Shown: in pieces, positions 27,469 through 53,895 of the stretch
Layout of the letters: each line of letters begins with the position of its first letter
How positions within the stretch are numbered: position 1 is the stretch's first letter
Assembly (NCBI RefSeq): GCF_000311725.1
Contig: NZ_HE978515.1
Location: forward strand, 404,631 to 468,324
Source: Robertmurraya massiliosenegalensis JC6
GTDB lineage: Bacteria; Bacillota; Bacilli; Bacillales; Cytobacillaceae
Direction of reading: 5' to 3'
Length of the DNA stretch: 63,694 nt
The notes under the pieces: generated by a model
Seen by the model: the letters and a program-made list of their open reading frames with translations, nothing else
Database searches by the model: none
Told to the model about the DNA's origin: nothing
Made by a program: the position numbers and the translations under genes

Positions 27469-27510
27469 GTGATGTAAATCATATGGGTTCACTTACTTTT
27501 CTGCTACAAT
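27469..27510 (+). promoter_or_regulatory. Fnr/Crp-type box and -10 of the 67-residue gene
   Basis: GTGATGTAAATCAT (27469-27482) matches GTGA-N6-TCAC with one change. TACAAT, a -10, starts 29.5 bases from the box centre, placing the box at about -41.5. The same distance is found at four other boxes in this window. Confidence 0.7.
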
Positions 27511-27544
27511 TCCTTTTAAAGAGTTGAGAAATGAGGATGTTTTG

Positions 27545-27748
27545 ATGGATAACAATACTGCACTTAAAATCTTAATCCAACGAATAAAAGAAGAGCATCA
27601 GGTCGCTTATCATCAATCATTTAAAGAGGACAATAACGATTATTGGCTAGGTAGACTAGCGATTACAAAGGAGTTATTAAACTTCTTTGATAAACAACAT
27701 CCACACAAATCTCAATATGACCTCACAAGCAATCTCTTTCGTAAATAA
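27545..27748 (+). CDS. Small protein of unknown function with Fnr-type promoter
   Basis: A 67-residue soluble protein starting MDNNTALKILIQRIKEEHQV; mostly helical, with NDYWLGRLAITKELLNFF in the middle. ATG at 27545 was chosen because GAGGAT precedes it; an in-frame upstream ATG has none. No family recognised. Its promoter carries the same regulator box as the terminal oxidase that follows, so it probably serves low-oxygen or nitrosative growth. Confidence 0.7.
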   Translation: MDNNTALKILIQRIKEEHQVAYHQSFKEDNNDYWLGRLAITKELLNFFDKQHPHKSQYDLTSNLFRK

Positions 27749-27802
27749 GCAACAAAAAAATCCATTAATTAACAAAATATCCGTTTTTCGGAGCATCCCT
27801 AT

Positions 27803-27849
27803 GGCTCTTGAATCCCCTTTTTTTTGCGAGGGGCTTCAAGGGTCTTTTT
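27803..27849 (+). terminator. Rho-independent terminator of the 67-residue gene
   Basis: GGCTCTTGAATCCCC pairs with GGGGCTTCAAGGGTC (14 of 15 positions, with G-T pairs), followed by TTTTT. It separates the small gene from the next Fnr-type box. Confidence 0.85.
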
Positions 27850-27887
27850 AGCATTCATAAAATGTTCACATTTACTAGCATTGATTT

Positions 27888-27929
27888 GTGACAAAAATCA
27901 CTGTGAAATTAACTTTCCACTACTAAGAT
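27888..27929 (+). promoter_or_regulatory. Fnr/Crp-type box and -10 of the ba3 oxidase operon
   Basis: GTGACAAAAATCAC (27888-27901) is a perfect GTGA-N6-TCAC. TAAGAT (27924-27929) lies 29.5 bases from its centre, so the box sits near -41.5. The transcript would have a leader of about 120 bases. The 307-base gap 27749-28055 otherwise holds only the terminator above. Confidence 0.75.
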
Positions 27930-28055
27930 AGTAGATATACGAATATTGAACAATTTGTGAAATCCTTACATCCATATGGATTATCAAAAATTGTCTAGTA
28001 TGATGTAGATGTAATCATTTACATTTTCTATTTTTTTCCGAAAGGAGTGAGTGTT

Positions 28056-28205
28056 ATGGCTAAAGCGGAATTGAAGAGCGATACAAGAACAGAGATTGAG
28101 GATAGCTCTTCTTTAAAAGGCACGTTGGCTTCCGTTTTCTTTGTCGGCTTTTTCATCATAGTACTTTGGGTTGGCGTTTACTTCTTATACTTAGATCGGT
28201 TTTAA
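28056..28205 (+). CDS. Small subunit IIa of ba3-type cytochrome c oxidase
   Basis: A 49-residue protein beginning MAKAELKSDT with one transmembrane helix (about residues 23-46, ASVFFVGFFIIVLWVGVYF). Such short single-helix subunits precede subunit II in ba3-type oxidase operons. AAAGGAG lies ten bases before the ATG, and subunit II follows by 22 bases. Confidence 0.8.
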   Translation: MAKAELKSDTRTEIEDSSSLKGTLASVFFVGFFIIVLWVGVYFLYLDRF

Positions 28206-28227
28206 AAATGAAAGGGGATTTTAGGCC

Positions 28228-28704
28228 ATGCATATCCATAAATTTGAAAAAATATGGCTGATTTTTGGGGTTACGGCTCTTCTTGTGTTCCTATCCGTAT
28301 TAGGAGTAAGTGCCTTTTACCTTGGTAATCAACCTCCTAGCTGTTTAGCTGTTATTGATCCTACAAAAGTGGATGAACACGACACATTTAAAGAGCCAGG
28401 TTTGAAAAAGGTAGAGGGAAAAGATTGGGATTATGAGCTTGTATATGTAGCTCAAGCTTTTGCTTATACTCCTGGTACAGTTGAAGTACCGCTTGGAGCA
28501 AAAGTGAAAGTAATCGTCACTTCTAAAGACGTTATTCACGGCTTTGGGGTAGCCGGTACAAATATTAACATGATGGTGGAGCCAGGTTATATCAGCGAGA
28601 TTGTAACAACATTTGATAAAGCTGGTGAGTACCTTGTTCTATGTAACGAATATTGTGGATCAGGACACCATATGATGACCTCAATGATTAAGGTGGTGGA
28701 ATAA
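28228..28704 (+). CDS. cbaB: ba3-type cytochrome c oxidase subunit II (CuA subunit)
   Basis: A 158-residue protein: one N-terminal helix (about 9-32), then a cupredoxin domain outside the membrane. The complete CuA site is present: H104 and C139-x3-C143-x3-H147-x2-M150 (CNEYCGSGHHMM). It accepts electrons from cytochrome c and passes them to subunit I. The short length is usual for B-family oxidases. Confidence 0.93.
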   Translation: MHIHKFEKIWLIFGVTALLVFLSVLGVSAFYLGNQPPSCLAVIDPTKVDEHDTFKEPGLKKVEGKDWDYELVYVAQAFAYTPGTVEVPLGAKVKVIVTSKDVIHGFGVAGTNINMMVEPGYISEIVTTFDKAGEYLVLCNEYCGSGHHMMTSMIKVVE

Positions 28705-28707
28705 TAA

Positions 28708-30363
28708 ATGCTTAAAACATCTTTAAATTTAAAAGTTGATCGTCGAGATGCCAAATTAGTAATGGCACATTTTTATGTAGCATTTATTGCCTTATTAGTC
28801 GGTGGACTTGCAGGACTCTTACAAGTATTGGTTCGTTCAGGAAAATTCGAATTACCTGCAGGAATTGGTTATTATCAAATCTTAACCGTTCACGGAGTCG
28901 TATTAGGACTCGTTTTAACCACATTTTTCATCATGGGATTTCAGCTTGCAGCCGTAAGCAAAACAGCTGGAACTTTTACAAATAAGCAAAGATTGATCGG
29001 TTGGATTGGATTCTGGATTATGACAATCGGTACTGTTGCTGCTGCTGTTATGATTCTATTAAATGAAGCATCTGTGCTCTATACGTTTTATGCACCGCTA
29101 CAAGCTCACTTTGTCTTCTATTTAGGATTGACACTTGTCATCGTAGGAAGCTGGGCTGTTGGTACAACGATTATTTTAAAGTATGCAGAGTGGAGAAGAG
29201 CAAACCCTGGACAACCGAGTCCATTGTTAACTTTCATGGCTCTTGTAAATACGATGATGTGGACTGTAGCCACAATCGGTGTGGCAGCTACTGTATTAAT
29301 TCAATTATTACCATGGTCATTAGGATTAATTGAAACCGTCAATGTCGGTGTGAGCCGTACCCTATTCTGGTATTTTGGTCACCCACTTGTTTATTTCTGG
29401 TTGCTCCCTGCTTATATGGCATGGTATGTCATGATTCCGAAGATTATCGGCGGAAAAATTTTCTCAGATTCATTAGCAAGAATGTCATTTATTCTATTTT
29501 TATTATTCTCGATTCCAGTAGGTTTCCACCATCAGCTTTTAGAGCCTGGAATTGACCCTGCTTGGAAGTTTTTACAAGTTGTTCTTACGTTTTTAGTTAT
29601 CATTCCATCGTTAATGACTGCATTTTCTTTATTTGCAACATTTGAAAGTTATGGACGTTCACAAGGGGCAACTGGATTATTTGGATGGTTTAAGAAACTT
29701 CCTTGGAAGGATGCCCGTTTTACAGTCCCATTTATCGGAATGCTTGCTTTCATTCCAGCTGGTGCAGGTGGTATCGTCAACGCTTCTCACCAAATGAACC
29801 AAGTTGTTCATAACACGATTTGGGTAACTGGACATTTCCATTTAACGGTTGCTACAGCTGTGGTACTAACATTCTTTGGTGTTTCTTTCTGGCTTGTACC
29901 ACATTTAACTGGTAGAAAATTAACGAAAAAAATCAATAAGCTTGCATTGATTCAAGGTTATCTATGGGCAATCGGAATGACCTTTATGTCTGGTGCCATG
30001 CATGCGGCAGGACTACTTGGCGCCCCTCGCCGTTCAGCCTACTCAGAATACGGTGGTGCTGCACAAGCTACAGAGTGGATTCCGTATCAAATTGCCCAAG
30101 CTGTTGGTGGTTCGATACTCTTTATTGCGATCATCTTAATGCTTTATATCTTTGTCAATCTTGCATTTTTTGCTCCAAAAGGAGAAGAAGAATTCCCAGT
30201 TGGTGAAGCTGCAAACCCTGCAGAAAAAGCACCAATGGTGTTCGAAAACTGGAAGCTATGGCTTGGAATTACCGTACTTTTAATTCTATTTGCCTACACA
30301 ATTCCACTTATCGACTTAATTCAAAATGCACCACCAGGAGCAAAAGGCTATAAGCTATGGTAA
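28708..30363 (+). CDS. cbaA: ba3-type cytochrome c oxidase subunit I
   Basis: A 551-residue heme-copper oxidase core with about 13 helices. Ligands: H62 (low-spin heme), H225 with the cross-link tyrosine Y229 in GHPLVYFW, H274-H275 for CuB, and H376/H378 in TGHFHLT for the two hemes. The His-Tyr pair argues for an oxygen reductase and against a nitric oxide reductase. B-family enzymes have high oxygen affinity and serve microaerobic growth, in line with the Fnr-type promoter. Confidence 0.93.
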   Translation: MLKTSLNLKVDRRDAKLVMAHFYVAFIALLVGGLAGLLQVLVRSGKFELPAGIGYYQILTVHGVVLGLVLTTFFIMGFQLAAVSKTAGTFTNKQRLIGWIGFWIMTIGTVAAAVMILLNEASVLYTFYAPLQAHFVFYLGLTLVIVGSWAVGTTIILKYAEWRRANPGQPSPLLTFMALVNTMMWTVATIGVAATVLIQLLPWSLGLIETVNVGVSRTLFWYFGHPLVYFWLLPAYMAWYVMIPKIIGGKIFSDSLARMSFILFLLFSIPVGFHHQLLEPGIDPAWKFLQVVLTFLVIIPSLMTAFSLFATFESYGRSQGATGLFGWFKKLPWKDARFTVPFIGMLAFIPAGAGGIVNASHQMNQVVHNTIWVTGHFHLTVATAVVLTFFGVSFWLVPHLTGRKLTKKINKLALIQGYLWAIGMTFMSGAMHAAGLLGAPRRSAYSEYGGAAQATEWIPYQIAQAVGGSILFIAIILMLYIFVNLAFFAPKGEEEFPVGEAANPAEKAPMVFENWKLWLGITVLLILFAYTIPLIDLIQNAPPGAKGYKLW

Positions 30364-30559
30364 CTATATTTTTATAAACGCTGTTTGCATATAAATTGTG
30401 GTTATTTGTAAAGACTCAGCAGTCGGTTTTTACCCTTATATCATGGTTATGGCTATACATGAAGTGTGCGACGGCACTTTTCGCTCCCTAAATCAGGCAT
30501 GTTGCTTCTTATTGCTTTCCAAGAGCAGCCATGTTTGCGATGAGAGCCTTTATAAAAAG

Positions 30560-30591
30560 AAACACTGGTTCAGCTAATTGAACCAGTGTTT
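30560..30591. terminator. Bidirectional terminator after the oxidase operon
   Basis: AAACACTGGTTCA, 6-base loop, TGAACCAGTGTTT then TTATTTT: a 13-bp perfect stem between the oxidase operon and the converging EamA gene. The 196 bases before it show no gene. Confidence 0.93.
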
Positions 30592-31494
30592 TTATTTTGT
30601 TTCACTTGATAACGCCCCTTTGTGATGAGGGAGGTTTACGATCAATACAGAAGCGAAGATTAATAGTGCTCCTACCATTTGAGACAGCCCTAATGTTTCT
30701 TGAAAAATCACAAGCCCAATCAACATCGCAACAACTGGCTCCACTGTTGCAATTACTGCGGCCCTACTACTCTCCGTTTTTTCAAGTCCCCAAGTATAGG
30801 CTAAAAAAGCTAAAACTGTCGGGATTAACCCTAGACCAGCACTAACTAAAAGTACTTTTGTCGATAAGATCACCTCTAACTTTCCCCATATTCCTGAAAA
30901 AGGAAGCAGTGCAATAGCCGCTACTAAAAATGTATATAACGTAACAGTAAATGGCTTAATCTCTTTAAGTGCAACTTTTCCAAATATGCTATATAATGCA
31001 TAACCAAACCCCGAACCTAGACCTGTTAGTATCCCGAGTAGTGTAATGGGGGTTCCTTTTTCACCCCCGACACCGACTATAAAGATACAGCCTAAAATCG
31101 TTCCAATTACAGCAATGATTTTCTTTTTATGGATCGATTCCTTTAAGAAAATAAACGACATGATTGTGACAAATGCTGGTGAAGTATAAAGAAGAATGAC
31201 AGCGATCGAAACACTCATTTCATTTATCGTAAAAAAATAACAATAATTAAAGAATGCTATACTGCAAATTCCTGTCCCTATAAAAACTGGAAGTTTACGT
31301 AACTTTACTTGCATTTCATCTCTATACGATACCATTCCGATGATTAGGAGAAAAATAGCCGCAAAAGTCACCCGTACTGTCACAATTTCCATTTCTGTTA
31401 AGCCAGCCGTTTTTAATTCACGAACAAAAATGGCAATTAGTCCCCATAATGCCGCACCGAAAGCAATCATGATATATGGCAATCCTTTTCTCAT
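30592..31494 (-). CDS. EamA family (DMT) transporter
   Basis: A 300-residue ten-helix drug/metabolite transporter with two repeated EamA halves (about 5-140 and 150-290). GVVIATVEPV-like positions appear as RAAVIATVEPVVAMLIGLVIFQE near 250. It would export or import a small metabolite. Start set at ATG 31494 because GGAGGGG precedes it; the longer in-frame start lacks a site. Its stop is at the terminator. Confidence 0.88.
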   Translation of the reverse strand: MRKGLPYIMIAFGAALWGLIAIFVRELKTAGLTEMEIVTVRVTFAAIFLLIIGMVSYRDEMQVKLRKLPVFIGTGICSIAFFNYCYFFTINEMSVSIAVILLYTSPAFVTIMSFIFLKESIHKKKIIAVIGTILGCIFIVGVGGEKGTPITLLGILTGLGSGFGYALYSIFGKVALKEIKPFTVTLYTFLVAAIALLPFSGIWGKLEVILSTKVLLVSAGLGLIPTVLAFLAYTWGLEKTESSRAAVIATVEPVVAMLIGLVIFQETLGLSQMVGALLIFASVLIVNLPHHKGALSSETK

Positions 31495-31553
31495 AACCCC
31501 TCCACTTAAAAAGGGATGACTATGAAAGGTCATCCCTAAGACTGTTGTACCAT

Positions 31554-33071
31554 CTATAAGTTGTATACCTGGCCATATTTTTCGTATAAATAGTCGACCA
31601 AGAATTGCGCATTTAAACCTTCTCCTGTTACGTCAGTTAGAATTTCCAGAGGTTTTTTCAAGGAGCCATATTGATGAATATTTTGCGTTAACCACTCCCT
31701 AATTGGTTGCAAATTCCCCTCTGCAAGTAAATGATCGTAATTTGGAATGTCCTTTAGCATTGCATTTTTAAATTGTGCTGCATACATATATCCAAGAGCA
31801 TAGGATGGGAAATAACCAAATGAACCACCTGACCAGTGAACATCCTGTAAAACACCATTTGCGTCATTATCAGGTCTTACTCCTAAATACTCTTCGTACT
31901 TGTCATTCCAAATTTGTGGCAAATCTTTCACTTCAATTTCACCATTGATAAGCCCTTTTTCAATTTCATATCGAATAATGATGTGTAATGGATATGTTAG
32001 CTCATCTGCCTCGATTCGAATAAGTGATGGTTTTGATTCGTTGATCGCACGGTAGTAATCTTCAATCGAAACGTGTTCGAATTGACCATTTGAGTACGAC
32101 TTTAAAAGATCATAGTTTTTCTTCCAAAAAGAAAAATTTCGTCCAACAAAGTTTTCATAGAATAAGGATTGAGATTCATGAATTCCCATAGAAGTCCCTG
32201 TACATAGTGGCGTTCCCACTAAATCCTTAGAAATATTTTGTTCATAGAGGGCGTGTCCACCTTCGTGAATCGTTCCAAATACAGCGACACGATAGTCTTT
32301 TTCATCATATTTCGTCGTGACCCGGACATCTCCAGGATTTAAACCAATGGCAAATGGATGAACGGTTTCATCTAAACGGCCTGCTTGGAAATCGTAGCCC
32401 ATTTGCTCTAAAATATTTAAGCTGAAATCTCTTTGTTTATCTTTTGGAAAATGCTCAAATAAGAAACTTGTTTCTGGTTTGTTAGCTGATTCAGAAATCG
32501 TCTTAACAAGCGGAATGATTTTCTCACGTAATTCTCCAAATACATTATCTAAAATCTCTACTGTTATTCCAGGCTCGTACATATCGAGCAATGTATTATA
32601 TTTATTCCCTTCATAGCCCCAGTATGTAACAAAACGTTTATTCGTTTCCACTAACTTCTCTAAATATGGTTTGAAAAGTTCAAAATCTGATCCATCCTTC
32701 GCTTCTTCCCATACACTCTCTGCCTTAGACTGAAGAATGACATATTCTTTATATTCTTCCGCCGGTATTTTCTTATTACGATCATATTCTTTTTTACAGT
32801 GTTCAGCAGTCTTACTCGTAATTTCAGAGATAACCTCTTTCGCTTCTTCTGTAGTTAAATTTGCAATGTATGCTGCCATTTCTTCAGATGTAGACATTTT
32901 GAATACTTCTGAAGACAAAGTACCAATTACTTGCGAACGTTGTTCTACACTTTTCTTTGGTGCCCCCGTACGTAAATCCCAATAAACTAATGAAAGTGCT
33001 TCATTATATGCAGTCATTTTTTGTACATAAGCGGTAAACTCTTGCTCTATTTGCTTAATTTTTTCACTCAC
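31554..33071 (-). CDS. M32 family metallocarboxypeptidase (carboxypeptidase Taq type)
   Basis: A 505-residue cytosolic zinc carboxypeptidase. The active-site HEGGH (in GTIHEGGHALYEQ) is near residue 268, the family motif DVRVTTKY near 248, and the third zinc ligand region HESQSLFYENFVGR follows. It trims C-terminal residues from peptides. The start is GTG at 33071, six bases after GGGGGGA; a longer TTG start at 33086 lies before that site. Confidence 0.93.
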   Translation of the reverse strand: MSEKIKQIEQEFTAYVQKMTAYNEALSLVYWDLRTGAPKKSVEQRSQVIGTLSSEVFKMSTSEEMAAYIANLTTEEAKEVISEITSKTAEHCKKEYDRNKKIPAEEYKEYVILQSKAESVWEEAKDGSDFELFKPYLEKLVETNKRFVTYWGYEGNKYNTLLDMYEPGITVEILDNVFGELREKIIPLVKTISESANKPETSFLFEHFPKDKQRDFSLNILEQMGYDFQAGRLDETVHPFAIGLNPGDVRVTTKYDEKDYRVAVFGTIHEGGHALYEQNISKDLVGTPLCTGTSMGIHESQSLFYENFVGRNFSFWKKNYDLLKSYSNGQFEHVSIEDYYRAINESKPSLIRIEADELTYPLHIIIRYEIEKGLINGEIEVKDLPQIWNDKYEEYLGVRPDNDANGVLQDVHWSGGSFGYFPSYALGYMYAAQFKNAMLKDIPNYDHLLAEGNLQPIREWLTQNIHQYGSLKKPLEILTDVTGEGLNAQFLVDYLYEKYGQVYNL

Positions 33072-33184
33072 TTTTAGTCCCCCCAAAACTGTAGTAACGT
33101 GTCTCTATTAAATGTAACGTGATGCAAATTTCGAAATACCAATTTATTTTATCATATTTTTCAGAAAAATAATCCTCAAAAATA

Positions 33185-33223
33185 GAAAAAGAGGGTCGTT
33201 TTTTAAACGCACACCTCTTTTTC
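33185..33223. terminator. Hairpin terminator after the minus-strand DUF2249 gene
   Basis: GAAAAAGAGG and CCTCTTTTTC are 10-bp arms around a 19-base inner region with TTT/AAA pairing. A-runs and T-runs on both sides fit a terminator downstream of the stop at 33231. Confidence 0.6.
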
Positions 33224-33230
33224 CACAGTT

Positions 33231-33470
33231 CTATATTTTTCCAATTGCTACTCTCCAAAGGTCCGGTCCTTCTTCTAAATACTCCCAAGTGAATGTGTCC
33301 GTTCTTTCGACCATAAATTGATATCTTAATGGTTTTGGGTCATGGTCATTGATTAATAGCATAAATTCCCCTTGCTGGAGGGCATCAAATGTATCAATAA
33401 TTTTCGGATGTTTTTCTTTTGGTGGAAAATTAGGCGCAATTACTTCTGCTGTAAAATCTATCATATTCAA
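33231..33470 (-). CDS. DUF2249 domain protein, copy A
   Basis: A 79-residue protein that is almost entirely a DUF2249 domain: PKIIDTFDALQQGEFMLLINDHDPKPLRYQF, with the D-P-K-P-L core near 45, and the C-terminal aromatic strand TWEYLEEGPDLWRVAI. The fold resembles TusA/SirA-like small proteins; function is not established. GAGGAG lies seven bases before the ATG. It is divergent from copies B and C and has its own Fnr-type box. Confidence 0.88.
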   Translation of the reverse strand: MNMIDFTAEVIAPNFPPKEKHPKIIDTFDALQQGEFMLLINDHDPKPLRYQFMVERTDTFTWEYLEEGPDLWRVAIGKI

Positions 33471-33502
33471 TCACTCCTCTTAAATTTCGTCCTTACATTT
33501 GT

Positions 33503-33544
33503 AGTATAGAGCTTGCAATTTTATGGTGTAGTGAACACCATCAC
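33503..33544 (-). promoter_or_regulatory. Fnr/Crp-type box and -10 of DUF2249 copy A
   Basis: GTGAACACCATCAC (33531-33544) is a perfect GTGA-N6-TCAC. On the minus strand TATACT (33508-33503) begins 29.5 bases from the box centre. A separate palindrome, ATGGTGT-N5-ACACCAT (33523-33541), overlaps the box. Confidence 0.75.
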
Positions 33545-33571
33545 ACTAGAAAATAAAATTTTTCATAACTT

Positions 33572-33613
33572 GTGATTTACATCACGATGCACCGTAGTGA
33601 AAATGATTATCAT
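33572..33613 (+). promoter_or_regulatory. Fnr/Crp-type box and -10 of the DUF2249 B-C operon
   Basis: GTGATTTACATCAC (33572-33585) is a perfect box. TATCAT (33608-33613) starts 29.5 bases from its centre. It lies 41 bases from the box for the divergent gene, so the two promoters are back to back. Confidence 0.75.
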
Positions 33614-33617
33614 TAAA
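33599..33617 (+). promoter_or_regulatory. Fur-type box overlapping the DUF2249 B-C promoter
   Basis: The 19 bases from 33599 match the Fur consensus at 16 positions, with a perfect ATGATTATCAT core, and cover the -10 at 33608-33613. An iron-loaded Fur-family repressor bound here would block the promoter. Confidence 0.6.
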
Positions 33618-33645
33618 GTATAGAAATGACAAAGGAGAGATAAAG

Positions 33646-33888
33646 ATGGATAATCACCTGATCGAATTAGATGTACGTGAAGATCTAAAAAATAAAATAG
33701 AACCTTTCCAAAAAATTATGGAAGCGACTAAAGCATTAAAAAGCGGAGATGTCTTAATTCTTCACGCCCCATTTAAACCTACTCCTCTCTTTGCGGTCTT
33801 AAAGGCAAAAGGTTTTGAGCATGTGGCTGAAGAACTAGGGAAGAAACATTGGAAAGTGACGTTCACAAAAAAGGCGGGGACAAAATGA
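33646..33888 (+). CDS. DUF2249 domain protein, copy B
   Basis: An 80-residue DUF2249 protein: EPFQKIMEATKALKSGDVLILHAPFKPTPLF covers the core, with F-K-P-T-P-L near residue 47, and KHWKVTFTKK is the final strand. It is preceded by AAAGGAGAG and is the first gene of an operon with copy C, a membrane protein and a DUF59 protein. The double Fnr/Fur-type control suggests a role when iron and oxygen are low or nitrogen oxides are present. Confidence 0.88.
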   Translation: MDNHLIELDVREDLKNKIEPFQKIMEATKALKSGDVLILHAPFKPTPLFAVLKAKGFEHVAEELGKKHWKVTFTKKAGTK

Positions 33889-34091
33889 AATTAGACAATC
33901 GTGGACTAGAGCCTCCTAATCCGATGATGAGGACCCTTCGAGCTCTTGAAACATTAGTGGTGGGGGATACATTAGAGATTATTAATGATCGCAGGCCTAT
34001 GTTTCTTTATGAACAATTAGATGAGCTGGGCTTCAAACATAGAACTGAGCCGAACGAAGATGGGAGCTTTACGATAAAAATAACGAAGTAA
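33885..34091 (+). CDS. DUF2249 domain protein, copy C
   Basis: A 68-residue DUF2249 protein (NPMMRTLRALETLVVGDTLE, then DRRPMFLYEQL and a final TIKITK strand). The ATG at 33885 overlaps the stop of copy B as ATGA and has GGCGGGG upstream, which decides the start. Three DUF2249 copies side by side suggest related but separate partners. Confidence 0.85.
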   Translation: MKLDNRGLEPPNPMMRTLRALETLVVGDTLEIINDRRPMFLYEQLDELGFKHRTEPNEDGSFTIKITK

Positions 34092-34105
34092 GGAAAGTGA
34101 GCTTC

Positions 34106-35350
34106 ATGATAGCTAAAAATATGGGACATGAAACGAATATTAAATTACCTTTTTCATTTATTCTATTCAGCATCATTGCCATTATCGTTTCTCAATTCCT
34201 TCTACTTTTCAATGGAGAAGCACTTATCAACGGAAGCTTTCGTATTCCTGCCATTTGGTCAGCTTCTCATCTATTCATATTAGGTTGGGCATTAATGATC
34301 GCAATGGGATCCATGTACCAATTAGTACCTGTAGCTTTTCTAACCCCAATTTGGAACGAGAAATTTGGGTTTATCCAATTTGCCGTAACATCAATTGGAA
34401 TTGTTTGGTTTGCTGTCACCCTTTACATCATGCCAAGTAAGGCGCTAATTCCAGGAATTTTGATGCTGCTTGGCATCCTTATGTTTCTTGTTCAAATGGG
34501 GATGACCTTAAGAAAACAGAGCAAACCAACTATTCTTACCCTTTTCGTAGGGAGCGCTTTACTCTGTTTACTTCTAACGATTGTAATAGGAATCACTTTG
34601 GTCATTAGTATGAGAACTGGTTTTGCAAGTCATTATTATTCCATTTTATTTCATAGCCATTTATTATTTGGAATTGCCGGTTGGTTTACACTATTAATCT
34701 TTGGATTCTCTTATAAAATGGCACCGATGTTTGCCCTTGCCCACGGTTATACTATGAAACTTGCAAAATATGTGTATGGTGTCTATACATCTGGGTTATT
34801 AACTGTATGGATGTCATTCATTTTCGATTCATCATGGCTTTTAAAAGGTGGATTTCTTCTTCTTTTATTGGGATTTAGTTGTTTTTTAACACATATTTAC
34901 TTGATCATTCAGAAACGGGTCAAGAAAACACTTGATCTTCCATTTCGTTTTGCCTTACTTGCGATTATCTTTGGAGCAGTAATCCATTTACTAGCATTTC
35001 TCACGGTAATAAGCGAGCGATTCTCCACTTATGCGGCACCCCTTATTATTGCATATTTAATGCTGTGGATTGCCTTTAGCATTATGGGATATCTCTATAA
35101 AATAGTTCCTTTTTTATGGTGGACGCATAAATACTCTCAGGTCATTGGGAAAAAGGATGTTCCAGCTTTAAAAGATATGATCAATGAAAAACTAGCCTCT
35201 CCGATATTCATGTCCTTTATATTAGGAATAGCACTAGTATCAGCGGGGATTGCATTAAATGGGCAAATACTTTTCTACATCGGACAGTCACTCGTTACGA
35301 TAGCTTCGCTCATATTCGGAATAGCCATTATTTTAGTCATGAAAAAATAG
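34106..35350 (+). CDS. Polytopic membrane protein, heme-copper oxidase subunit I-like / NnrS-like
   Basis: A 414-residue protein with about 12 predicted helices. Several helices carry single histidines in oxidase-like settings: SASHLFILGWALMIAMGSMYQ near 49, FHSHLLFGIAGWFTLLIFGF near 184-203, AHGYTMKLA near 213 and VIHLLAFL near 297. This resembles the subunit-I fold and the NnrS family of heme/copper proteins tied to nitric oxide tolerance, but the full catalytic ligand set is not seen. ATG 34106 follows AAGGAAAG; a GTG at 34097 is less likely. Exact family unassigned. Confidence 0.7.
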   Translation: MIAKNMGHETNIKLPFSFILFSIIAIIVSQFLLLFNGEALINGSFRIPAIWSASHLFILGWALMIAMGSMYQLVPVAFLTPIWNEKFGFIQFAVTSIGIVWFAVTLYIMPSKALIPGILMLLGILMFLVQMGMTLRKQSKPTILTLFVGSALLCLLLTIVIGITLVISMRTGFASHYYSILFHSHLLFGIAGWFTLLIFGFSYKMAPMFALAHGYTMKLAKYVYGVYTSGLLTVWMSFIFDSSWLLKGGFLLLLLGFSCFLTHIYLIIQKRVKKTLDLPFRFALLAIIFGAVIHLLAFLTVISERFSTYAAPLIIAYLMLWIAFSIMGYLYKIVPFLWWTHKYSQVIGKKDVPALKDMINEKLASPIFMSFILGIALVSAGIALNGQILFYIGQSLVTIASLIFGIAIILVMKK

Positions 35351-46112: not shown

Positions 46113-46144
46113 AATAAGAAAAGCCCCCCAAAGTGGAGAGCTTT
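46113..46144 (-). terminator. Terminator of rnpB
   Basis: AAAGCTCTCC, loop ACTTT, GGGGGGCTTT: a 10-bp stem with two G-T pairs, then TCTTATT on the minus strand, about 40 bases after the RNase P RNA end. Confidence 0.8.
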
Positions 46145-46181
46145 CCAAACAAGTCATTTTCACTTTATAATAATGTATTAA

Positions 46182-46610
46182 AGTCCTTAATAACGTTCTG
46201 TAAGCCATGTTTTGTTCCTTCGTACTGCAAACGACCTTCGTCTTGTACTCCGGTGGTAATCATCTATCTACAGATTACAATGAACCTGTCCTTCTTTCTC
46301 GTTCATTTCCTTAAAGAAGGTGCCCCTACCATAATTTGGGTTTCTCGCTCGTGGGGTTTACCTCGTTCCACCCTACTCATTTCTGAGGAGGCTCCGTCAC
46401 TGTGGCACTTTCAAGGTATTCATGCCATATCATAAATGACTTAGGCATTTTCCCTGCCGTCAAAAAAGAAGAAGCAAGGCCTCTTCCTTAATGCCCTAGC
46501 TTATTTTTTCGCTAGGCACGAACACTACAGACATCTCAGCCTGTGCGAGCATGGACTTTCCTCTACAATTCGCCAAAACTTATTGCAGCGATTACCCGAA
46601 CGTTATTAAC
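46182..46610 (-). ncRNA. rnpB: RNase P RNA, Bacillus (B) type
   Basis: The catalytic RNA that trims the 5' leader from tRNA precursors. On the minus strand it begins GTTAATAACGTTCGGGTAAT and has the universal core GAGGAAAGTCCATGCTCGCA, then CGTGCCTAGCGAAA, GAAAGTGCCACAGTGACGG and GGTAAACCCCACGAGCGAGA, ending CATGGCTTACAGAACGTTA. The two ends pair perfectly over 11 bases (TTAATAACGTT / AACGTTATTAA) as helix P1. About 429 bases, close to the 401 of Bacillus subtilis. It lies next to gpsB as in Bacillus. Confidence 0.96.
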
Positions 46611-46673
46611 TACAAGCATTATTATATGAAAGAATGAAAAGAATAGCAATGGAAATTATTGTTTCAATTTCTA

Positions 46674-46994
46674 TCAGTCGTACAGCTTGCTTCCAAACAC
46701 ATGCTTCTCTAAATTCGATAATCTCTTTAATATATCGAAGTTCGTTGTACCCGTTGTTTGTGGTGCAGGTGCAGGAGCTGGACGCTTGGCCGATTCCTCC
46801 GCAAGCCTTTTGAGCCTGATGTTTTCTTGTTGCAGCTCTTCAATTTCTGCTTGCATCGTTTCATAATCCTTGATGATAATATCTAGAAATTTATCTACAT
46901 CTTCAGGTTTATAGCCTCTCATTGCTGTTTTAAACTCTTTTTCCAAAATTTCTTTTGCCGTTAATTTAATTTTATCTGAATGCAAATTATTCAC
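46674..46994 (-). CDS. gpsB: Cell-division coordinator GpsB
   Basis: A 106-residue coiled-coil protein of the DivIVA/GpsB family. The N-terminal membrane-contact and PBP-binding part is [28 protein letters not shown] (residues 10-38), followed by a coiled coil to about 70, a Pro/Ala linker (APAPAP) and a C-terminal helix [17 protein letters not shown]. GpsB moves PBP1 between septum and side wall. Length is slightly longer than the 98 of Bacillus subtilis. Confidence 0.95.
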
Positions 46995-47086
46995 CTCTAA
47001 ACGCCAATCGTTATCATTATTTTTTCAAAAATATGCAACTTTGTCAATTTTTCTTTTCTATTTTGGCATTTTCTACCGTCTTTTCA

Positions 47087-47650
47087 TTAAAAATCGCTCT
47101 TTTTCATCTGTTCTTCTTCAACAATGGCTTGAAGATCGTAAAAATCAATTAAATGAATGTCATAAGGTTGATTCTCTTGATATTTCCGAGCGGTTTCATA
47201 CAAAAATTTAGGACTCCCGTCTTTTTCAGAATCGTATAAAAGAATTAGGACATCACTCTTTTCCACTAAGAACTGATTTTTCAAACGAAACTGCCAAGGA
47301 TTTTCGTACTTTTTTTTCGTAATCGAATCTACAAAATCGGCTTGAATCAGGATAGACTCATACCACTCTTTTTTCTCGTCCTTCCAGTTTTCCTCTTGAT
47401 TCAAAAATGGGGTAATCACTGCAAGTTTTAAATCGTCATATCCCTCAAGCTGTAGGTCAAAAACAACTTCTGCTGCCCAAAGTTCAGTCCCTAGCTGGCC
47501 ACTAACGATAACCCACTCTAGTCCTTCATCAAGTTGTGAAAGCAATTGTTTTTTTATCGCTAATTTAATGTATTCAATGCTAGGATCATTATGACTAAAT
47601 AATCCAAGCTCATGTGGCTTATATCCCGAAATAACCGCTACCTTACTCAA
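47087..47650 (-). CDS. ypsA: YpsA, DUF1273/SLOG-family protein
   Basis: A 187-residue protein starting [18 protein letters not shown] with [18 protein letters not shown] near residue 48 and [20 protein letters not shown] near 150, which fit the SLOG nucleotide-binding fold. YpsA influences cell division in Bacillus and Staphylococcus and is normally next to gpsB, as here. Confidence 0.93.
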
Positions 47651-47809
47651 TATATTAGAAACTCCTTATGTAAAAGCTCTTTACAAATTACTTGTGCTAC
47701 AAAATAACAGTGAAAAGAGCTTGCTTATTCCATCTGTGGTACGGTGCTACGTATAAATCGGAATCGTCGGCATTAGGACTATTCCAATCCGTATTGAAAG
47801 ATCCTATGT

Positions 47810-47837
47810 AAAAAAAGATCCTAAAATCTGGATCCTT
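47810..47837 (-). terminator. Terminator after the 29-residue gene
   Basis: AAGGATCC, 8-base loop, GGATCTTT then TTTT on the minus strand; three bases after the stop of the small membrane frame. Confidence 0.75.
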
Positions 47838-47840
47838 ATT

Positions 47841-47930
47841 TTAAAACAACGCATAGTGTTTAATATTAGAAAAAATAATCGCTGTTAGACCAATGACAAT
47901 AAAAAACAAAAGTAAAATCACCTTTTGCAA
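47841..47930 (-). CDS. Possible small membrane peptide (29 residues)
   Basis: TTG-started frame MQKVILLLFFIVIGLTAIIF then SNIKHYALF: one hydrophobic helix and a short polar tail. A stop codon lies three codons upstream, so the start must be this TTG or the GTG at 47921. A terminator follows at once. The ribosome binding site is weak (GAAGAG). Nothing else is seen in the 380-base gap 47651-48031. Confidence 0.4.
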   Translation of the reverse strand: MQKVILLLFFIVIGLTAIIFSNIKHYALF

Positions 47931-48031
47931 TGCTCTTCACTCACTTTAATTTTTATTGATTAGCAAGCTCTTGTAAGCTAACCACACAATATATATTGTA
48001 ACTGTGTCGAAGTGAATAGACAACTAGGGAA

Positions 48032-49303
48032 TTAGTGGTTTTTTCTTCGCCGCTGTTTTTTTGTAATTCGTTCAATCCGTTTTTCTACTTCGGCAAATAT
48101 AGTAGTATCCTTCTCTTTCCACAACGCCCTTTTTTCTTGCAAAATACAAAGGGCTTGCTCAGAATATGAGAGAGCTTGCTGCAAATTCTTTTGTCGATGC
48201 TCAAAGTATTTCGCTAGCTCAATACTAGCCTGTACTGCCATATTTTTGCTGTTAGCATCGGCAAGTTCTTGCCAAAGAGCAACCGCCAAATCCCATTGCT
48301 TTATTTTTTTGTGTTCCAAAGAGAGGGCCCATTTTGCCTTTAAAGCATTATCTTCTGACCCTTCTGCAACTAAAGAAAGATTTTCTAATGCACCTGCTCT
48401 TTCTCCTAATGAGGCATACCAACGTCCCACCTCGTAGCCTTCTGAAACTGTTCTGGATTGATCAATATTTAAAAGCTGGAAGGTGATATGAGTATACAAT
48501 GTAATAAGAGACAATATATCCATTTCATTATGCTGCAAAACACCAAGCATTCCATCTGGATTACCTGTTTCAACAAAATCAAAATAGATCATCGGTGCAA
48601 GATAACCAGGTACATCTTCCTCCCGTTCAATTCCAAGTACTTCTTTTTCTACAATTGATAGTTTAAGCCTGTCTAATTTATGTTTCCATAATCGTCTCGC
48701 CCCATGAAATAAATCAAAATGGCCAAAGGATGGTAGCTTCGGTACAAGTTCTCTTATTAGTGTATGTCTTGTTTTCACCTGTGGCCAATCGAATGCTTTG
48801 CCATTATAGGTCACGAGTGTTCGATAATCGATGCTCTCAAGAAAGCTTTGATACAAGGGTACCTCTGCTCCTGGATGAGGAAGGAAGTGCTGCCGCAAAA
48901 TAACCTTATCATTTTTAACTGAGGCATAACCTAGTAGAAAGATCGTATTCCCCGTTCCGCCACCTAACCCTGTTGTCTCTGTATCAAAGAAAAATAATTG
49001 TTCATGACAATAACCATTAGCGGACAACGGATGCTGAACAGACGTTTGATTCCAAGCTTGAACCGCTTCTAGAAATTGAGCAAAAGTATATCTCCCATAC
49101 TTTTGTTCCAACGGATATTCCTTTTCACGGATCAAACAAAAATCACCATCATAATAGTAAGGGCTAACAAAATTTCTTTCCCATTGCTCTTGATGTGGAA
49201 CCATTCCCTCCAACTGCTCACCTTGTAAAGGAGTCTTTATTTCTTCCGTTTTTTCACTTCGTATATGCGGTTTTAGGCGATTCAACTTACTACGAAAAGA
49301 CAT
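48032..49303 (-). CDS. mrfB: MrfB (YprB) DEDDh-type exonuclease
   Basis: A 423-residue protein with an RNase H-like exonuclease domain (about 105-275; FFDTETTGLGGGTGNTIFLLGYA holds the first Asp and Glu, and LVTYNGKAFDWPQ the next Asp) and C-terminal TPR-like helices (about 300-410). In Bacillus subtilis MrfAB removes mitomycin C lesions independently of UvrABC. Start ATG 49303 has GGGAAG; a GTG at 49333 overlapping mrfA is an alternative. The C-terminus is basic. Confidence 0.9.
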   Translation of the reverse strand: MSFRSKLNRLKPHIRSEKTEEIKTPLQGEQLEGMVPHQEQWERNFVSPYYYDGDFCLIREKEYPLEQKYGRYTFAQFLEAVQAWNQTSVQHPLSANGYCHEQLFFFDTETTGLGGGTGNTIFLLGYASVKNDKVILRQHFLPHPGAEVPLYQSFLESIDYRTLVTYNGKAFDWPQVKTRHTLIRELVPKLPSFGHFDLFHGARRLWKHKLDRLKLSIVEKEVLGIEREEDVPGYLAPMIYFDFVETGNPDGMLGVLQHNEMDILSLITLYTHITFQLLNIDQSRTVSEGYEVGRWYASLGERAGALENLSLVAEGSEDNALKAKWALSLEHKKIKQWDLAVALWQELADANSKNMAVQASIELAKYFEHRQKNLQQALSYSEQALCILQEKRALWKEKDTTIFAEVEKRIERITKKQRRRKNH

Positions 49304-49329
49304 GTTCACACTTCCCTCTTCTAACTCCG

Positions 49330-51594
49330 TCACCTTAAAAATCGTTCCAGAATTTGCAATGCATCATATTTGGCATGTTCACTCGTTGGATCTGTGCCAA
49401 TACAAGATGGACAACCACTTTCACATTGGCAACGGTTAATCATTCCTCTAGCCTCTTTAAGCACACTTTCGATCCCATCATAGATTTTCTCACTTAACCC
49501 GATCCCACCAGGATAACGATCATAAAAGAAGATCGTTGGTTTCTCATTGTGTACCGCCTTCACCTGTGGCACAACATGAATATCTCCTGAATCACACATC
49601 ACAAAAATAGGAGCGATATAGCGCAAGGCATGAGCTGCACCGATTAGCCCTTGCTCCATTCTTGATTCGGATAACTCTAGACTATCCTCAATCGAGATCC
49701 ATGCAGAGCTCGTATGTAGCTCTTCCTCTGGAAGAAAGATTGGACCAGAACCGATATTTTCATGGCTATCAAATTTAATTTTTTTAAAAATCGTCGCCTT
49801 CGCCAAAATACTCACATCACCATAGGCAACTTCTGTATGATTTATCGAACGACTCTTATCGATTTCAAGCACTTTAAGTTCTACAGCAAGATTGGCATCT
49901 GTGAAATAATCGACATCTACCTCGCGAACAAAAGCCTTCTTCTCCTCCCAATCAAGCTTTTCTACTTGATATTGGACTCCTTGGTGAAGATAAATGGCTT
50001 CCTCATGCAATAGGGTCATGGCAGAAAAACGGTCCATCTCCCCTATTACTCTTACATGGGCTACATTTGATTGATCAATAATGACGATGTTTTCCTGTGA
50101 AGCCGAACGAAGACTAATATTATGAGCGGGAAAGGAATCGTTCATCCAATACCATTTATCGCCTCGTTGATAAAGGACTCTTTCTTCTACGAGATACTCT
50201 AATACTTCCTCTGTTTCGAATGCACCAAAACGCTCATCTTTTTTAAAAGGTAGCTCGTAAGCGGCACATTTTATATGATCAATAAGAATAATAAGATTAT
50301 CTGGATTGATTCTTGCCGTTTCAGGACTTTTCGTAAAAAAATAATCGGGATGCTCAATGATATATTGATCTAATGGACTTGAGCTCGCTACCATAATCAC
50401 TAACGATTCGCTATGTCTTCTCCCTGCCCGGCCTGCTTGCTGCCATGAGCTTGCAATCGAACCTGGATATCCTGTCATGATACACACTTGAAGCTGTCCA
50501 ATGTCAACGCCAAGCTCTAATGCATTCGTACTAACAACACCGTAAATATCCCCATTACGTAGTCCCTTTTCAATCGCACGTCTTTCAGTCGGCAAATACC
50601 CACCTCGATAACCACGAATGGACTTCGGGCCGAGTTGATTTTTGACTAATTCCTGTAAATAGGTTAAAAGAATTTCTACTCTTACACGGCTCCGGGCAAA
50701 GACGATCGTCTGAATCCGATTCTTCAACAACTCCCCTGCCAGTTTGCGTACCTCTAAAGTAGCACTTCTACGAATATTCAACGGCTTATTGACAATTGGC
50801 GGATTGTAAAAGAGAAAATGTTTCTTTCCGCTCGGTGCACCATTATTATCGATTAACGTCATCTTCTTCCCTGTCAGATTTTCTGCCAGCTCTAACGGAT
50901 TGGCAATGGTTGCTGATGTACAGATAAATATTGGATCTGTTCCGTAAAATCGACAAATCCTCTGCAATCTTCGAATGACATTCGCGACATGACTTCCAAA
51001 TACACCTCGATAAATATGAAGTTCATCGATGACGACATATTTTAAATTCTCGAATAAAGATACCCATTTCGTGTGATGCGGTAGGATGGCTGAGTGTAGC
51101 ATATCTGGATTTGTAATGACGATATGTCCTGCTTTACGAACCTTTTCTCGAATCGAGCTTTGAGTATCTCCATCATATGTATAGCTATTAATCATGAGAT
51201 CAGCTTCCCCAATAAGCTCATTAATTTCACTTTTTTGGTCTTGAGCTAACGCTTTTGTAGGAAAAATATAAAGAGCCCTTGCCTGAGGATTCTCGGTAAT
51301 AGCTTGCAAGACTGGTAGATTATAACAGAGTGTTTTTCCAGATGCAGTTGGCGTTACGGCAACAATATTTTCTCCACTCTGTACAGCTTCGAAGGCAGAT
51401 CTCTGATGGGTATATAATTCGTTAACGCCTCGTTTTTGCAAAGCATCTATTAAATTCTCGTTGATATGAAAAGGCATTTCGACAGTTTTAGCTTCCTTTT
51501 CTTCGATTGTATGCCAATGGACAATATTTTCTTTAACATTTTCTTCTAGCTTTAATTCCTCTAAAAAATGCTGTAGGTTTTTTCGCACCTTCAT
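49330..51594 (-). CDS. mrfA: MrfA (YprA) DEAD/DEAH-box DNA helicase
   Basis: A 754-residue helicase: Walker A TPTASGKT near residue 82, DELH (VIDELHIYRG) near 190, motif VI QQAGRAGRR near 390, and a C-terminal DUF1998 domain with a four-cysteine zinc/metal site (CQCESGCPSC near 726). With MrfB it repairs mitomycin C damage. ATG 51594 has AGAGGTG five bases upstream. It overlaps or abuts mrfB and forms one operon with it. Confidence 0.93.
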   Translation of the reverse strand: MKVRKNLQHFLEELKLEENVKENIVHWHTIEEKEAKTVEMPFHINENLIDALQKRGVNELYTHQRSAFEAVQSGENIVAVTPTASGKTLCYNLPVLQAITENPQARALYIFPTKALAQDQKSEINELIGEADLMINSYTYDGDTQSSIREKVRKAGHIVITNPDMLHSAILPHHTKWVSLFENLKYVVIDELHIYRGVFGSHVANVIRRLQRICRFYGTDPIFICTSATIANPLELAENLTGKKMTLIDNNGAPSGKKHFLFYNPPIVNKPLNIRRSATLEVRKLAGELLKNRIQTIVFARSRVRVEILLTYLQELVKNQLGPKSIRGYRGGYLPTERRAIEKGLRNGDIYGVVSTNALELGVDIGQLQVCIMTGYPGSIASSWQQAGRAGRRHSESLVIMVASSSPLDQYIIEHPDYFFTKSPETARINPDNLIILIDHIKCAAYELPFKKDERFGAFETEEVLEYLVEERVLYQRGDKWYWMNDSFPAHNISLRSASQENIVIIDQSNVAHVRVIGEMDRFSAMTLLHEEAIYLHQGVQYQVEKLDWEEKKAFVREVDVDYFTDANLAVELKVLEIDKSRSINHTEVAYGDVSILAKATIFKKIKFDSHENIGSGPIFLPEEELHTSSAWISIEDSLELSESRMEQGLIGAAHALRYIAPIFVMCDSGDIHVVPQVKAVHNEKPTIFFYDRYPGGIGLSEKIYDGIESVLKEARGMINRCQCESGCPSCIGTDPTSEHAKYDALQILERFLR

Positions 51595-51782
51595 TGCTTT
51601 CACCTCTACTAGTTATCTCTTTATTGTATCGAATAAACGTTCGTAGAAAAAGAGATTTGATTGATATTTTTATTACCAAATTTTTTCGAAGTAAATTTGT
51701 AAGAAATCAGCCTTAAAGATTTTAGAAATGAGGATGTTTTTTATGTACAATAGAGGGAGATGACTTAAATTCGAGGTGTAGT

Positions 51783-52475
51783 ATGAGACAGGAAGATATA
51801 AAAGAAATCTTATCAAAATTTACGCTTTTTCGTGATTTAAATGAGGATGAGTTAGCCAAAATCGTTGATATTTCCATTTCAAGAGAATGGAAAAAAGGAA
51901 CTTATGTGTTTATGCAAGACGATCCTTTAGAAAATGTTTATTTTATTTATGATGGCAAAATTAAAATATATAAAAGTGATGTCACAGGGAAAGAACAGAT
52001 TGTCGCATTCTTAAAAAAGGGCGAAATGTTCCCACATGTTGGCTTCTTTAGAAAAGGAGGATATCCGGCTTTTTCTGAAGTCGTGGAGAACGCAGTATTA
52101 GTTGTGGTCCCGATTTCTAAGTTTGAAAATGTTCTAATTGAAAACCCATTACTTTCGATTAAAGTATTTAAAGTTCTTGGGGAAAAAATTGTTGAATTAC
52201 AAGAGAGACTCGAATCACAAATTATCAATAATACATATGAACAAATTGTCAAGCTCCTGATTAGATTAGGAAAGAATCACGGGAAGGAATTAGAAGATGG
52301 CACTATTCTCTTAAAAGGGGAATTCACAAATAGAGATTTAGCGAATATGATTGGAACAACTCGTGAAACCGTTAGCCGAACGTTAACGAAGATGAAAAAA
52401 GAAGGTACAATCGAAGTCGATGAAAAAGGAAACTTTCTACTTAATCCAGATACGCTAATGGACGAATTAATATAA
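51783..52475 (+). CDS. Crp/Fnr family transcription regulator without cysteines
   Basis: A 230-residue protein: cyclic-nucleotide-binding-like beta-barrel (about 15-125), dimer helix (about 128-150) and winged helix (about 155-222) with recognition helix TTRETVSRTL, whose E-x2-S-R reads TGTGA-type sites. There is no cysteine in the whole protein, so it cannot carry the 4Fe-4S cluster of true Fnr; a heme or other ligand, as in DNR-type nitric oxide sensors, is possible. It is next to the hcp gene and is the likely reader of the GTGA-N6-TCAC boxes. Confidence 0.88.
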   Translation: MRQEDIKEILSKFTLFRDLNEDELAKIVDISISREWKKGTYVFMQDDPLENVYFIYDGKIKIYKSDVTGKEQIVAFLKKGEMFPHVGFFRKGGYPAFSEVVENAVLVVVPISKFENVLIENPLLSIKVFKVLGEKIVELQERLESQIINNTYEQIVKLLIRLGKNHGKELEDGTILLKGEFTNRDLANMIGTTRETVSRTLTKMKKEGTIEVDEKGNFLLNPDTLMDELI

Positions 52476-52512
52476 AAAAAATCCGCCAGTCCTGTTAACT
52501 GGTGGATTTTTT
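52476..52512. terminator. Bidirectional terminator between the Crp/Fnr gene and hcp
   Basis: AAAAAATCCGCCAGT, 7-base loop, ACTGGTGGATTTTTT: a long stem with one G-T pair directly after the stop. Confidence 0.93.
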
Positions 52513-52528
52513 TAAGAGAACGTTTTTA

Positions 52529-53818
52529 TTATTTGGCAAGCATTTCTGCCATATCTTCTTGAGCTGTTCCAATTAGCTTCAAATTAAAGGTTTCTTGAAG
52601 AACGTTCATGACCCCTTCTGAGATGAATTCTGGTGGTTTTGGACCAATTCGGATATCTTGGATTCCTAAACTGAATAACCCAAGTAGAATCGCAACCGCT
52701 TTTTGCTCGAACCAAGAAAGGACGATGCTAACTGGTAATTCGTTTATTTCACATTCGAATGCGTCTGCTAACGCTTTAGCAATCTTCACCGTCGAACCAG
52801 AGTTATTACATTGTCCGAGGTCTATATAACGAGGAATGTCCGTTCCTGGAACTGTGCCATAATCTACATCATTAAAACGGAATTTGCCACAAGAAGTGGT
52901 CAAAATTACGGTTTCTGGTGGTAATGAAGTGGCGAGTTCACGGTAATATTCTCCACCTTTACCTGGTGCATCACAGCCTGCAATGACAAAGAAACGCTTA
53001 ATCTTTCCTTCCTTCACAGCGGCTATCACTTCTGGAGCAAGCCCTAACACGGTTTCATGATGGAAACCAGTTAATAATGTTTCTTCCGAATCAATATAAG
53101 CTTCAGGTAACTCTAACGCTCTCTCAATCAATGGAGTGAAATCATCACCGATAATTTTTTGAACATTTTCAAGTCCAGCTACTTCATAAGAGAACATTCT
53201 ATCCGCATAACTTCCTTTTATTGGCATTACACAATTTGTCGTCGCAAGAATAGCACCGTTGAATTTTTCAAATAATCTTCGTTGGTCATACCAAGCCTTC
53301 CCTAGATTTCCTTTTAAATGAGGATACTTTTTCAAAGCTGGATAGCCATGGGCTGGTAACATTTCAGAGTGGGTATAGATGTTAATCCCTTTCCCTTCTG
53401 TTTGCTTTAAAAGCTCCTCAAGTGCGAATAGATTGTGACCTGTCACAATGATCGCCTTTCCTTCAACCTTATTTTGTGAGACTCTAATCGGTTCTGGGAT
53501 TCCTAATCTCTTTGTATGAGCCTCATCTAGAACTTCCATCATTCGTACTGCTGATCTTCCTACTTTCATTGCCATCTCAATATGTTCTTGCACATTGAAA
53601 TTCGAATTTGTTAATGTCATGTATAGTGCTTCATGTGTTGTTGCATCAACAAATGCATCCGTTGCTCCTAATTGATTGGCATGGGTACGGTAAGCAGCAA
53701 TTCCTTTTAAGCCAAAAATAATGGTATCCTGCAAACTCGCGATCGTTTCATCTTTTCCACAAACTCCAATGACCTTACATCCACCTGTAGGTGTTTGTTC
53801 ACATTGATAACAAAACAT
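52529..53818 (-). CDS. hcp: Hybrid cluster protein (hydroxylamine / nitric oxide reductase), short class
   Basis: A 429-residue Hcp. The N-terminal cysteines C3, C6, C14 and C20 (MFCYQCEQTPTGGCKVIGVC) hold the cubane cluster; hybrid-cluster ligands appear in VTGHNLFALEE, ATTNCVMPI, AGCDAPGKGGEYY and TSCGKFRFN. The length suits the short class lacking one helical bundle. Hcp handles nitric oxide and hydroxylamine under low oxygen. A perfect Fnr-type box sits at -41.5. Confidence 0.95.
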   Translation of the reverse strand: MFCYQCEQTPTGGCKVIGVCGKDETIASLQDTIIFGLKGIAAYRTHANQLGATDAFVDATTHEALYMTLTNSNFNVQEHIEMAMKVGRSAVRMMEVLDEAHTKRLGIPEPIRVSQNKVEGKAIIVTGHNLFALEELLKQTEGKGINIYTHSEMLPAHGYPALKKYPHLKGNLGKAWYDQRRLFEKFNGAILATTNCVMPIKGSYADRMFSYEVAGLENVQKIIGDDFTPLIERALELPEAYIDSEETLLTGFHHETVLGLAPEVIAAVKEGKIKRFFVIAGCDAPGKGGEYYRELATSLPPETVILTTSCGKFRFNDVDYGTVPGTDIPRYIDLGQCNNSGSTVKIAKALADAFECEINELPVSIVLSWFEQKAVAILLGLFSLGIQDIRIGPKPPEFISEGVMNVLQETFNLKLIGTAQEDMAEMLAK

Positions 53819-53853
53819 TGCGCAATTCCCCTCTCTCTTTACATTACGGTATC

Positions 53854-53895
53854 AATATAACTTTCATTTAGTTGCGATCAAGTGAGCCAAATCAC
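53854..53895 (-). promoter_or_regulatory. Fnr/Crp-type box and -10 of hcp
   Basis: GTGATTTGGCTCAC on the minus strand (53895-53882) is a perfect GTGA-N6-TCAC. TATATT (53859-53854) begins 29.5 bases from its centre, giving class II spacing. Confidence 0.8.

Follow-up and report, generated by a model that had tools for sequence, protein, structure and literature searches.

The closest described relatives of the promoter set analyzed here each involve a regulator of the Crp/Fnr family or a CRP-like factor, and the papers on them are drawn on throughout as excerpts. The Bacillus subtilis Fnr regulon is described with a palindromic box (PMC8151001) and an iron-sulphur cluster located at the C-terminus of Fnr (PMC8139620). 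ANR/DNR of Pseudomonas and FnrL/Dnr of Dinoroseobacter combine an oxygen sensor with a denitrification regulator of one family, both acting on one box (PMC5398030). HcpR of Desulfovibrio and others is linked to hcp and is described with the box wTGTGAnnnnnnTCACAw and an R/E/R recognition helix (PMC1274295, PMC5701242); it is named for Clostridia, Thermotogales, Bacteroides, Treponema, delta-proteobacteria and two cyanobacteria, with NsrR named for Bacillus (PMC1274295). In Thermus, the DUF2249 protein DrpA is reported to be periplasmic and paired with DrpB, and stands under the CRP-like factor DnrT in nitrate respiration (PMC6282519). The subject of this text is a group of five GTGA-N6-TCAC boxes in a 63,694-nucleotide stretch of Robertmurraya massiliosenegalensis JC6 (the window), which precede genes for a 67-residue protein, a ba3 oxidase, two divergent DUF2249 proteins and hcp. 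Next to hcp lies a gene for a Crp/Fnr-family regulator, referred to by its start position as 51783.

We consider it likely that these boxes are activator sites of the Crp/Fnr family at class II promoters, that they belong to a genome-wide set, and that those before ba3, DUF2249 and hcp are readable by both Fnr and 51783. As in B. subtilis, the palindrome is the same, the genome's own Fnr proteins carry a C-terminal cysteine motif and targets are anaerobic; unlike there, a cysteine-free regulator is also linked and the set includes a ba3 oxidase, hcp and DUF2249 genes. No such set was found in the open-licence literature searched, judged by titles and the starts of abstracts. ANR/DNR and FnrL/Dnr differ in box letters and phylum, and the sharing proposed here is drawn from genome comparison. 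The likeness of 51783 to HcpR is one of features. In 49 of the 76 named loci, which overlap with the genome set used below, hcp is downstream of the regulator gene in opposite orientation (about 1.8 kb away in L279), and a perfect box precedes hcp in 47/47 named loci with the full hcp upstream stretch. The recognition helix reads RETVSR, with R, E and R at positions 1, 2 and 6 as in the Fnr helices, residues that have been linked to TGTGA boxes (PMC1274295, PMC5701242). Unlike the Thermus arrangement, the two small DUF2249 genes here are divergent and lie next to a gene for a membrane protein. The best reading is that the set works like ANR/DNR or HcpR, and the hcp-linked lineage and Fnr are probably both able to read it.

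All five boxes of the sequence-only reading are present, four of them perfect and one with a single change, and the equal distance it reported is exact: in promoter orientation each -10 hexamer begins 22 bases past its box, or 29.5 from the centre. By the usual numbering, with the start predicted from the -10 hexamer, this puts the box centre at -41.5, the class II position, in 5/5 window promoters. The motif TAnnnT occurs at spacing 22 for 4/4 perfect window boxes. Shuffled windows contain a mean of 0.48 perfect boxes, and 0/100 reach four. The argument that chance is improbable thus holds for the four perfect boxes and fails for the box at 27469 when this is judged within the window. Counting every box with at most one mismatch gives no excess over chance (20, compared to 17.45 expected), and TAnnnT at spacing 22 occurs for only one of the 16 one-mismatch boxes, 27469 (1/32 flanks, where a TAnnnT frequency near 2% predicts about 0.65). 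Because 27469 alone is not above chance, its support must come from relatives, while the other four sites stand on the window alone.

The genome (G000; 4.96 Mb in 24 contigs) contains 67 perfect boxes, compared to 37 for a mirrored control pattern. Flanks were analyzed for 64 of these (128 flanks), and TAnnnT was found at spacing 22 on 16; the other 59 spacings in the range 0–59 give 1–8 (mean 3.5). A direct search of the genome for the box with a -10 hexamer at this distance, the check originally proposed, returned the same 16 sites, compared to 4 for the mirrored control. Twelve are outside the window and four inside it; this makes the set genome-wide, and "local" is not a fitting description of it. 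The outside sites adjoin YwiC-like, radical-SAM, pflB, nos cluster, NADH dehydrogenase, CoA-disulphide-reductase-like and other genes, names taken from open reading frame (ORF) starts and neighbours and not from family searches. For some of the 16 sites, no gene clearly follows (e.g., C6:26238, C6:31024 and C7:49504). The peak at one spacing in the window, the genome and the relatives supports the proposal of a Crp/Fnr-type class II set, given predicted starts.

The same geometry recurs in related genomes. Within 700–740 bases upstream of ba3 subunit II, a perfect box is present in 54/63 genomes, and TAnnnT follows at spacing 22 in 43/51 distinct promoters with a box (mean at other spacings, 1.49); this comparison uses the best subunit II match per genome, 48–100% identical. 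For hcp, the perfect box is found in 35/37 promoters and the hexamer in 31/35 distinct promoters with a box (other spacings, 0.76). Reverse DUF2249 promoters have the box in 10/11 homologues and the hexamer in 9/9 distinct promoters with it (0.32), and forward DUF2249 homologues have a perfect box within 300 bases in 17/30, with the hexamer in 14/16 distinct promoters (0.35). The 67-residue gene occurs in 4/151 genomes, all of one genus; the 7/8 box and same spacing recur in 4/4 of them, own genome included, and TAnnnT is at spacing 22 in 4/4 (0.03).

Relatives that lack one or both regulator types serve as natural knock-outs. A perfect ba3 box is present in 41/44 genomes with both types, 3/3 with only the 51783 type (G009, G033 and G049), 8/9 with only Fnr, 2/3 with only a distant Fnr-like protein and 0/4 with neither, two of the last by distant homologues. 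Any regulator compared to none gives a Fisher p of 0.0002, without correction for kinship. A hand recount of subunit II matches of at least 60% identity gave 40/42, 3/3, 4/5 and 0/2 for both, 51783 only, Fnr only and neither, respectively. The hcp box is kept in 2/2 51783-only and 2/2 Fnr-only genomes, and in the genome comparison for hcp this gene was found in no genome lacking both regulator types. Class II sites, counted on both strands (mirrored control in parentheses), number 12–31 (1–4) in 15 genomes with both types, 5–9 (0–3) in four 51783-only genomes and 0–3 (0–3) in eleven genomes with neither. In G049, the single Crp/Fnr match with either query is the 51783 orthologue. Among the 9 class II sites of this genome are those of ba3, hcp and the two sides of the DUF2249 pair, as well as sites at a radical-SAM-like and a YwiC-like gene. 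In G116 and G119, the single match with either query is of the Fnr type; both have the ba3 box, and G119 has the hcp box. One class II site of G009 precedes a gene that, from its start sequence, we presume to be ScdA/RIC-like. Three boxless genomes among the first 30 (G028, G030 and G046) all lack 51783, and these 30 had suggested that the ba3 box tracks 51783 and not Fnr; this was dropped since distant Fnr-only genomes keep the box.

Several observations weigh against a box shared by the two regulator types. The genomes are related by descent, which makes the counts non-independent, and the two genomes with neither regulator at the 60% limit (G030 and G046) belong to one genus. Whether a genome is scored as having Fnr or 51783 depends on E-value limits of our choosing, and the 51783 match of distant genomes, 51–58% identical, may be a paralogue. 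The G009 orthologue (C4:637014) has an in-frame stop in the assembly. Many genomes hold a second subunit II copy near 50% identity, so ba3 matches below 60% may represent another oxidase. G028 has Fnr and no ba3 box, L240, L241 and L247 have both types and no perfect ba3 box, and the forward DUF2249 box is missing in 13/30 homologues. Seven Fnr-only genomes have 2–5 class II sites, hardly above controls of 1–3. As evidence that Fnr is a reader, these counts are weak, and the retention of the ba3 and hcp boxes is better.

An explanation that we regard as unlikely is that Fnr, responding to oxygen, is the sole reader of the five boxes, with 51783 controlling something else and merely adjoining hcp. 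The box does match the B. subtilis Fnr consensus TGTGANNNNNNTCACA (PMC8151001), Fnr-only genomes keep the ba3 and hcp boxes as counted above, and Thermoanaerobacter tengcongensis hcp is described with a CRP-like site and adjoins Crp2, called orthologous to B. subtilis FNR (PMC1274295). However, genomes with 51783 and no Fnr at the limit used keep the ba3 and hcp boxes without exception, G028 has Fnr alone and no ba3 box, and the 51783 helix shares its R, E and R with those of Fnr. The converse, in which 51783 or a close paralogue is the sole reader and Fnr uses other sites, fits the retention of ba3, hcp and DUF2249 sites in G049, but appears improbable given the boxes of G116 and G119. The proposal that the protein encoded at 51783 is the regulator stands in part: the protein, with its R-E-x-x-x-R helix, is a plausible reader, though probably not the only one, since the genome holds Fnr paralogues and most Fnr-only relatives keep the boxes.

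Chance likeness, at least for a non-functional 27469, is very improbable in our judgment. Its single hexamer among 16 one-mismatch boxes is what chance would give, and two relatives (L181 and L182) keep a box of the same form and the -10 hexamer with no comparable reading frame; on the other hand, the box and spacing recur wherever the 67-residue gene is found, and chance falls well short of explaining the other four sites. Least probable of all is that the boxes belong to a different factor whose palindrome is similar, for example the repressor Rex, with a consensus given as TTGTGAA-W4-TTCACAA (PMC2883068). The Rex-like form GTGAA-N4-TTCAC fits 14/64 genome boxes, but is found in 0/16 class II sites (Fisher p 0.014) and in none of the five window boxes, and an exact -41.5 would not be expected of a repressor. 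With these 14 boxes excluded, post hoc and with the data already seen, spacing 22 gives 16/100 flanks compared to a mean of 2.78 and a next largest value of 7 (binomial p about 2e-8).

In the shared-box explanation, a Crp/Fnr dimer at -41.5 would contact RNA polymerase and switch the gene on. Either regulator type seems sufficient to keep the boxes, and with both types present, as here, the promoters could answer low oxygen through Fnr plus the signal of 51783. Binding and activation are what we infer from the boxes, their geometry, conservation and retention in single-type genomes. The core targets of 51783 would be nitrogen-oxide and low-oxygen genes. The nitrogen-oxide and microaerobic theme of the sequence-only reading is supported. 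The signal of 51783 is most likely nitric oxide (NO) or another gas sensed through heme, with NO the likeliest from the targets and the position beside hcp.

The genome encodes six Crp-family matches, three of which carry a C-terminal CxxCxxxxC: two Fnr paralogues and one more distant protein. Protein 51783 has zero cysteines, and the matched stretches in the 76 named loci have 0–2; lacking the ligands for a 4Fe-4S cluster, 51783 is not an iron-sulphur Fnr. Met82 and His85 (in GEMFPHxGFF) are invariant in 75/75 orthologue rows and 14/14 paralogues and absent from Fnr rows; for heme binding they are no more than candidates. The column that holds His85 in these proteins holds Glu in three Fnr-type proteins and L004, a position which we take to be equivalent to the cAMP-pocket glutamate of CRP. 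Heme in 51783 is a guess from these two residues and the analogy with HcpR (PMC12750200). A tree of 35 rows separates 51783 orthologues and the paralogue group from the Fnr rows, with several long branches and unsure joins. There is no close solved structural relative of 51783 (best E, 1.7e-17). Among the matches listed, those of at least 66% identity extend across most of the bacterial family (151 genomes), with a few members lacking the protein, such as the boxless genomes G028, G030 and G046; the nearest named record, at 91%, is from Robertmurraya siralis. No perfect box was found within 600 bases before the regulator gene in any of 30 loci inspected for autoregulation.

A bolder reading, put forward tentatively, sees in the 51783 lineage a gas sensor that has gone unrecognised, is widespread in the family and acts as a working counterpart of HcpR/DNR, with heme at the Met82/His85 region. 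Sharing one box with Fnr, it would let the ba3 oxidase, hcp, DUF2249 and other repair genes answer low oxygen and NO through a single site, and in many relatives a paralogue would have entered the DUF2249 operon. The Fnr-type box, class II geometry, shared boxes and hcp-linked regulator are all of known kinds. For the cysteine-free lineage in Bacillaceae or its target set, no description was found in open-licence literature, represented mostly by titles and the starts of abstracts. Among environmental Bacillaceae, the set makes it possible to test a case in which two sensors from the same family would share one box, with G049 (cysteine-free type only), G116 and G119 (Fnr only) and G030 and G046 (neither) as natural knock-outs. 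It also draws attention to a lineage of Crp/Fnr regulators that is frequently found next to hcp and probably connected with nitrosative stress, and places uncharacterised DUF2249 proteins in a response linked to that stress.

Table 1. Boxes and genes of the window (positions in the window; transcription starts predicted).
Feature	Position	Strand	Remarks
Box GTGATGTAAATCAT	27469..27482	+	7/8 match; -10 TACAAT 27505-27510; predicted start ~27517
67-residue protein without family	27545..27748	+	reading frames compared with relatives
Box GTGACAAAAATCAC	27888..27901	+	-10 TAAGAT 27924-27929; predicted start ~27936
ba3 oxidase subunit IIa (CoxIIa, PF08113)	28056..28205	+	family match
ba3 oxidase subunit II	28228..28704	+	family match
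ba3 oxidase subunit I	28708..30363	+	cross-link tyrosine in HPLVY; 422 bits to Thermus ba3 oxidase; alignment
DUF2249 protein, reverse side of divergent pair	33231..33464	-	PF10006
Box GTGATGGTGTTCAC	33531..33544	- (read on minus strand)	-10 TATACT 33508-33503; predicted start ~33496
Box GTGATTTACATCAC	33572..33585	+	-10 TATCAT 33608-33613; predicted start ~33620
DUF2249 protein, first gene of forward operon	33646..33888	+	PF10006
Second small ORF	33849-34091		precedes 417-residue gene
417-residue membrane-type protein	34097..35350	+	weak COX1 match, below curated cut-off
Crp/Fnr-family regulator (51783)	51783..52475	+	no cysteine; helix TTRETVSR; conserved GEMFPHxGFF
hcp, hybrid cluster protein, 429 residues	52529..53818	-	NCBIfam NF003658 and TIGR01703 above cut-off; tail to tail with regulator
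Box GTGATTTGGCTCAC	53882..53895	- (read on minus strand)	-10 TATATT 53859-53854; predicted start ~53847

The enzyme encoded behind the second box was also considered as a nitric oxide reductase. This was ruled out because the tyrosine that marks oxygen reductases (PMC3475470) is kept in subunit I.

The two DUF2249 boxes stand at a distance of 41 bases, which places each of them at -82.5 relative to the opposite promoter. Five further genomes of the genus show a distance of 41–44, and a sixth, G003, one of about 317. A paralogue of 51783 is located 21–418 bases before the forward DUF2249 gene, on the same strand, in 14/30 loci, and in two of these a perfect box and -10 hexamer precede the paralogue. 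Two of the 13 homologues without the forward box (L156 and L158) have it instead before the upstream Crp/Fnr paralogue. In G009 (L335), the DUF2249 gene seems to be cut and fused into the next gene.

The 67-residue protein has no Pfam match at E 0.01 and no NCBIfam match at E 0.001, and the three other homologues are 53–57% identical. Its C-terminus (window 27700-27748) is without the ICRRC stretch that ends its relatives. In L181 and L182, the two closest relatives (~910-1110 of the oriented loci), the box and -10 hexamer may be the remnant of a promoter or may drive a transcript that encodes no protein.

Beside the regulator gene, two genes on the minus strand (window 48032-51603) match RNase_H_2 and a DEAD helicase with the MrfA zinc-binding domain; presumably they resemble the MrfA/MrfB DNA repair pair. 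G033 (L334, near 2491) has no hcp match, yet a class II box is kept at the same place beside the regulator. The fifth box base was tried as a mark of 51783 compared to Fnr; T or C predominates there in the footprints, but inspection by eye shows the same for most class II sites listed from other genomes, and the mark was rejected. Elsewhere in the genome, two Rex-like boxes lie 42 bases apart (G000 C1:750442 and 750484). Three similar tandem operons, molybdopterin-oxidoreductase-like by reading of their ORFs, occupy C6:22000-41000 (L071), where four GTGA-N6-TCAC boxes fall within 11 kb; three are at -41.5, and two of these face away from the nearest long frames.

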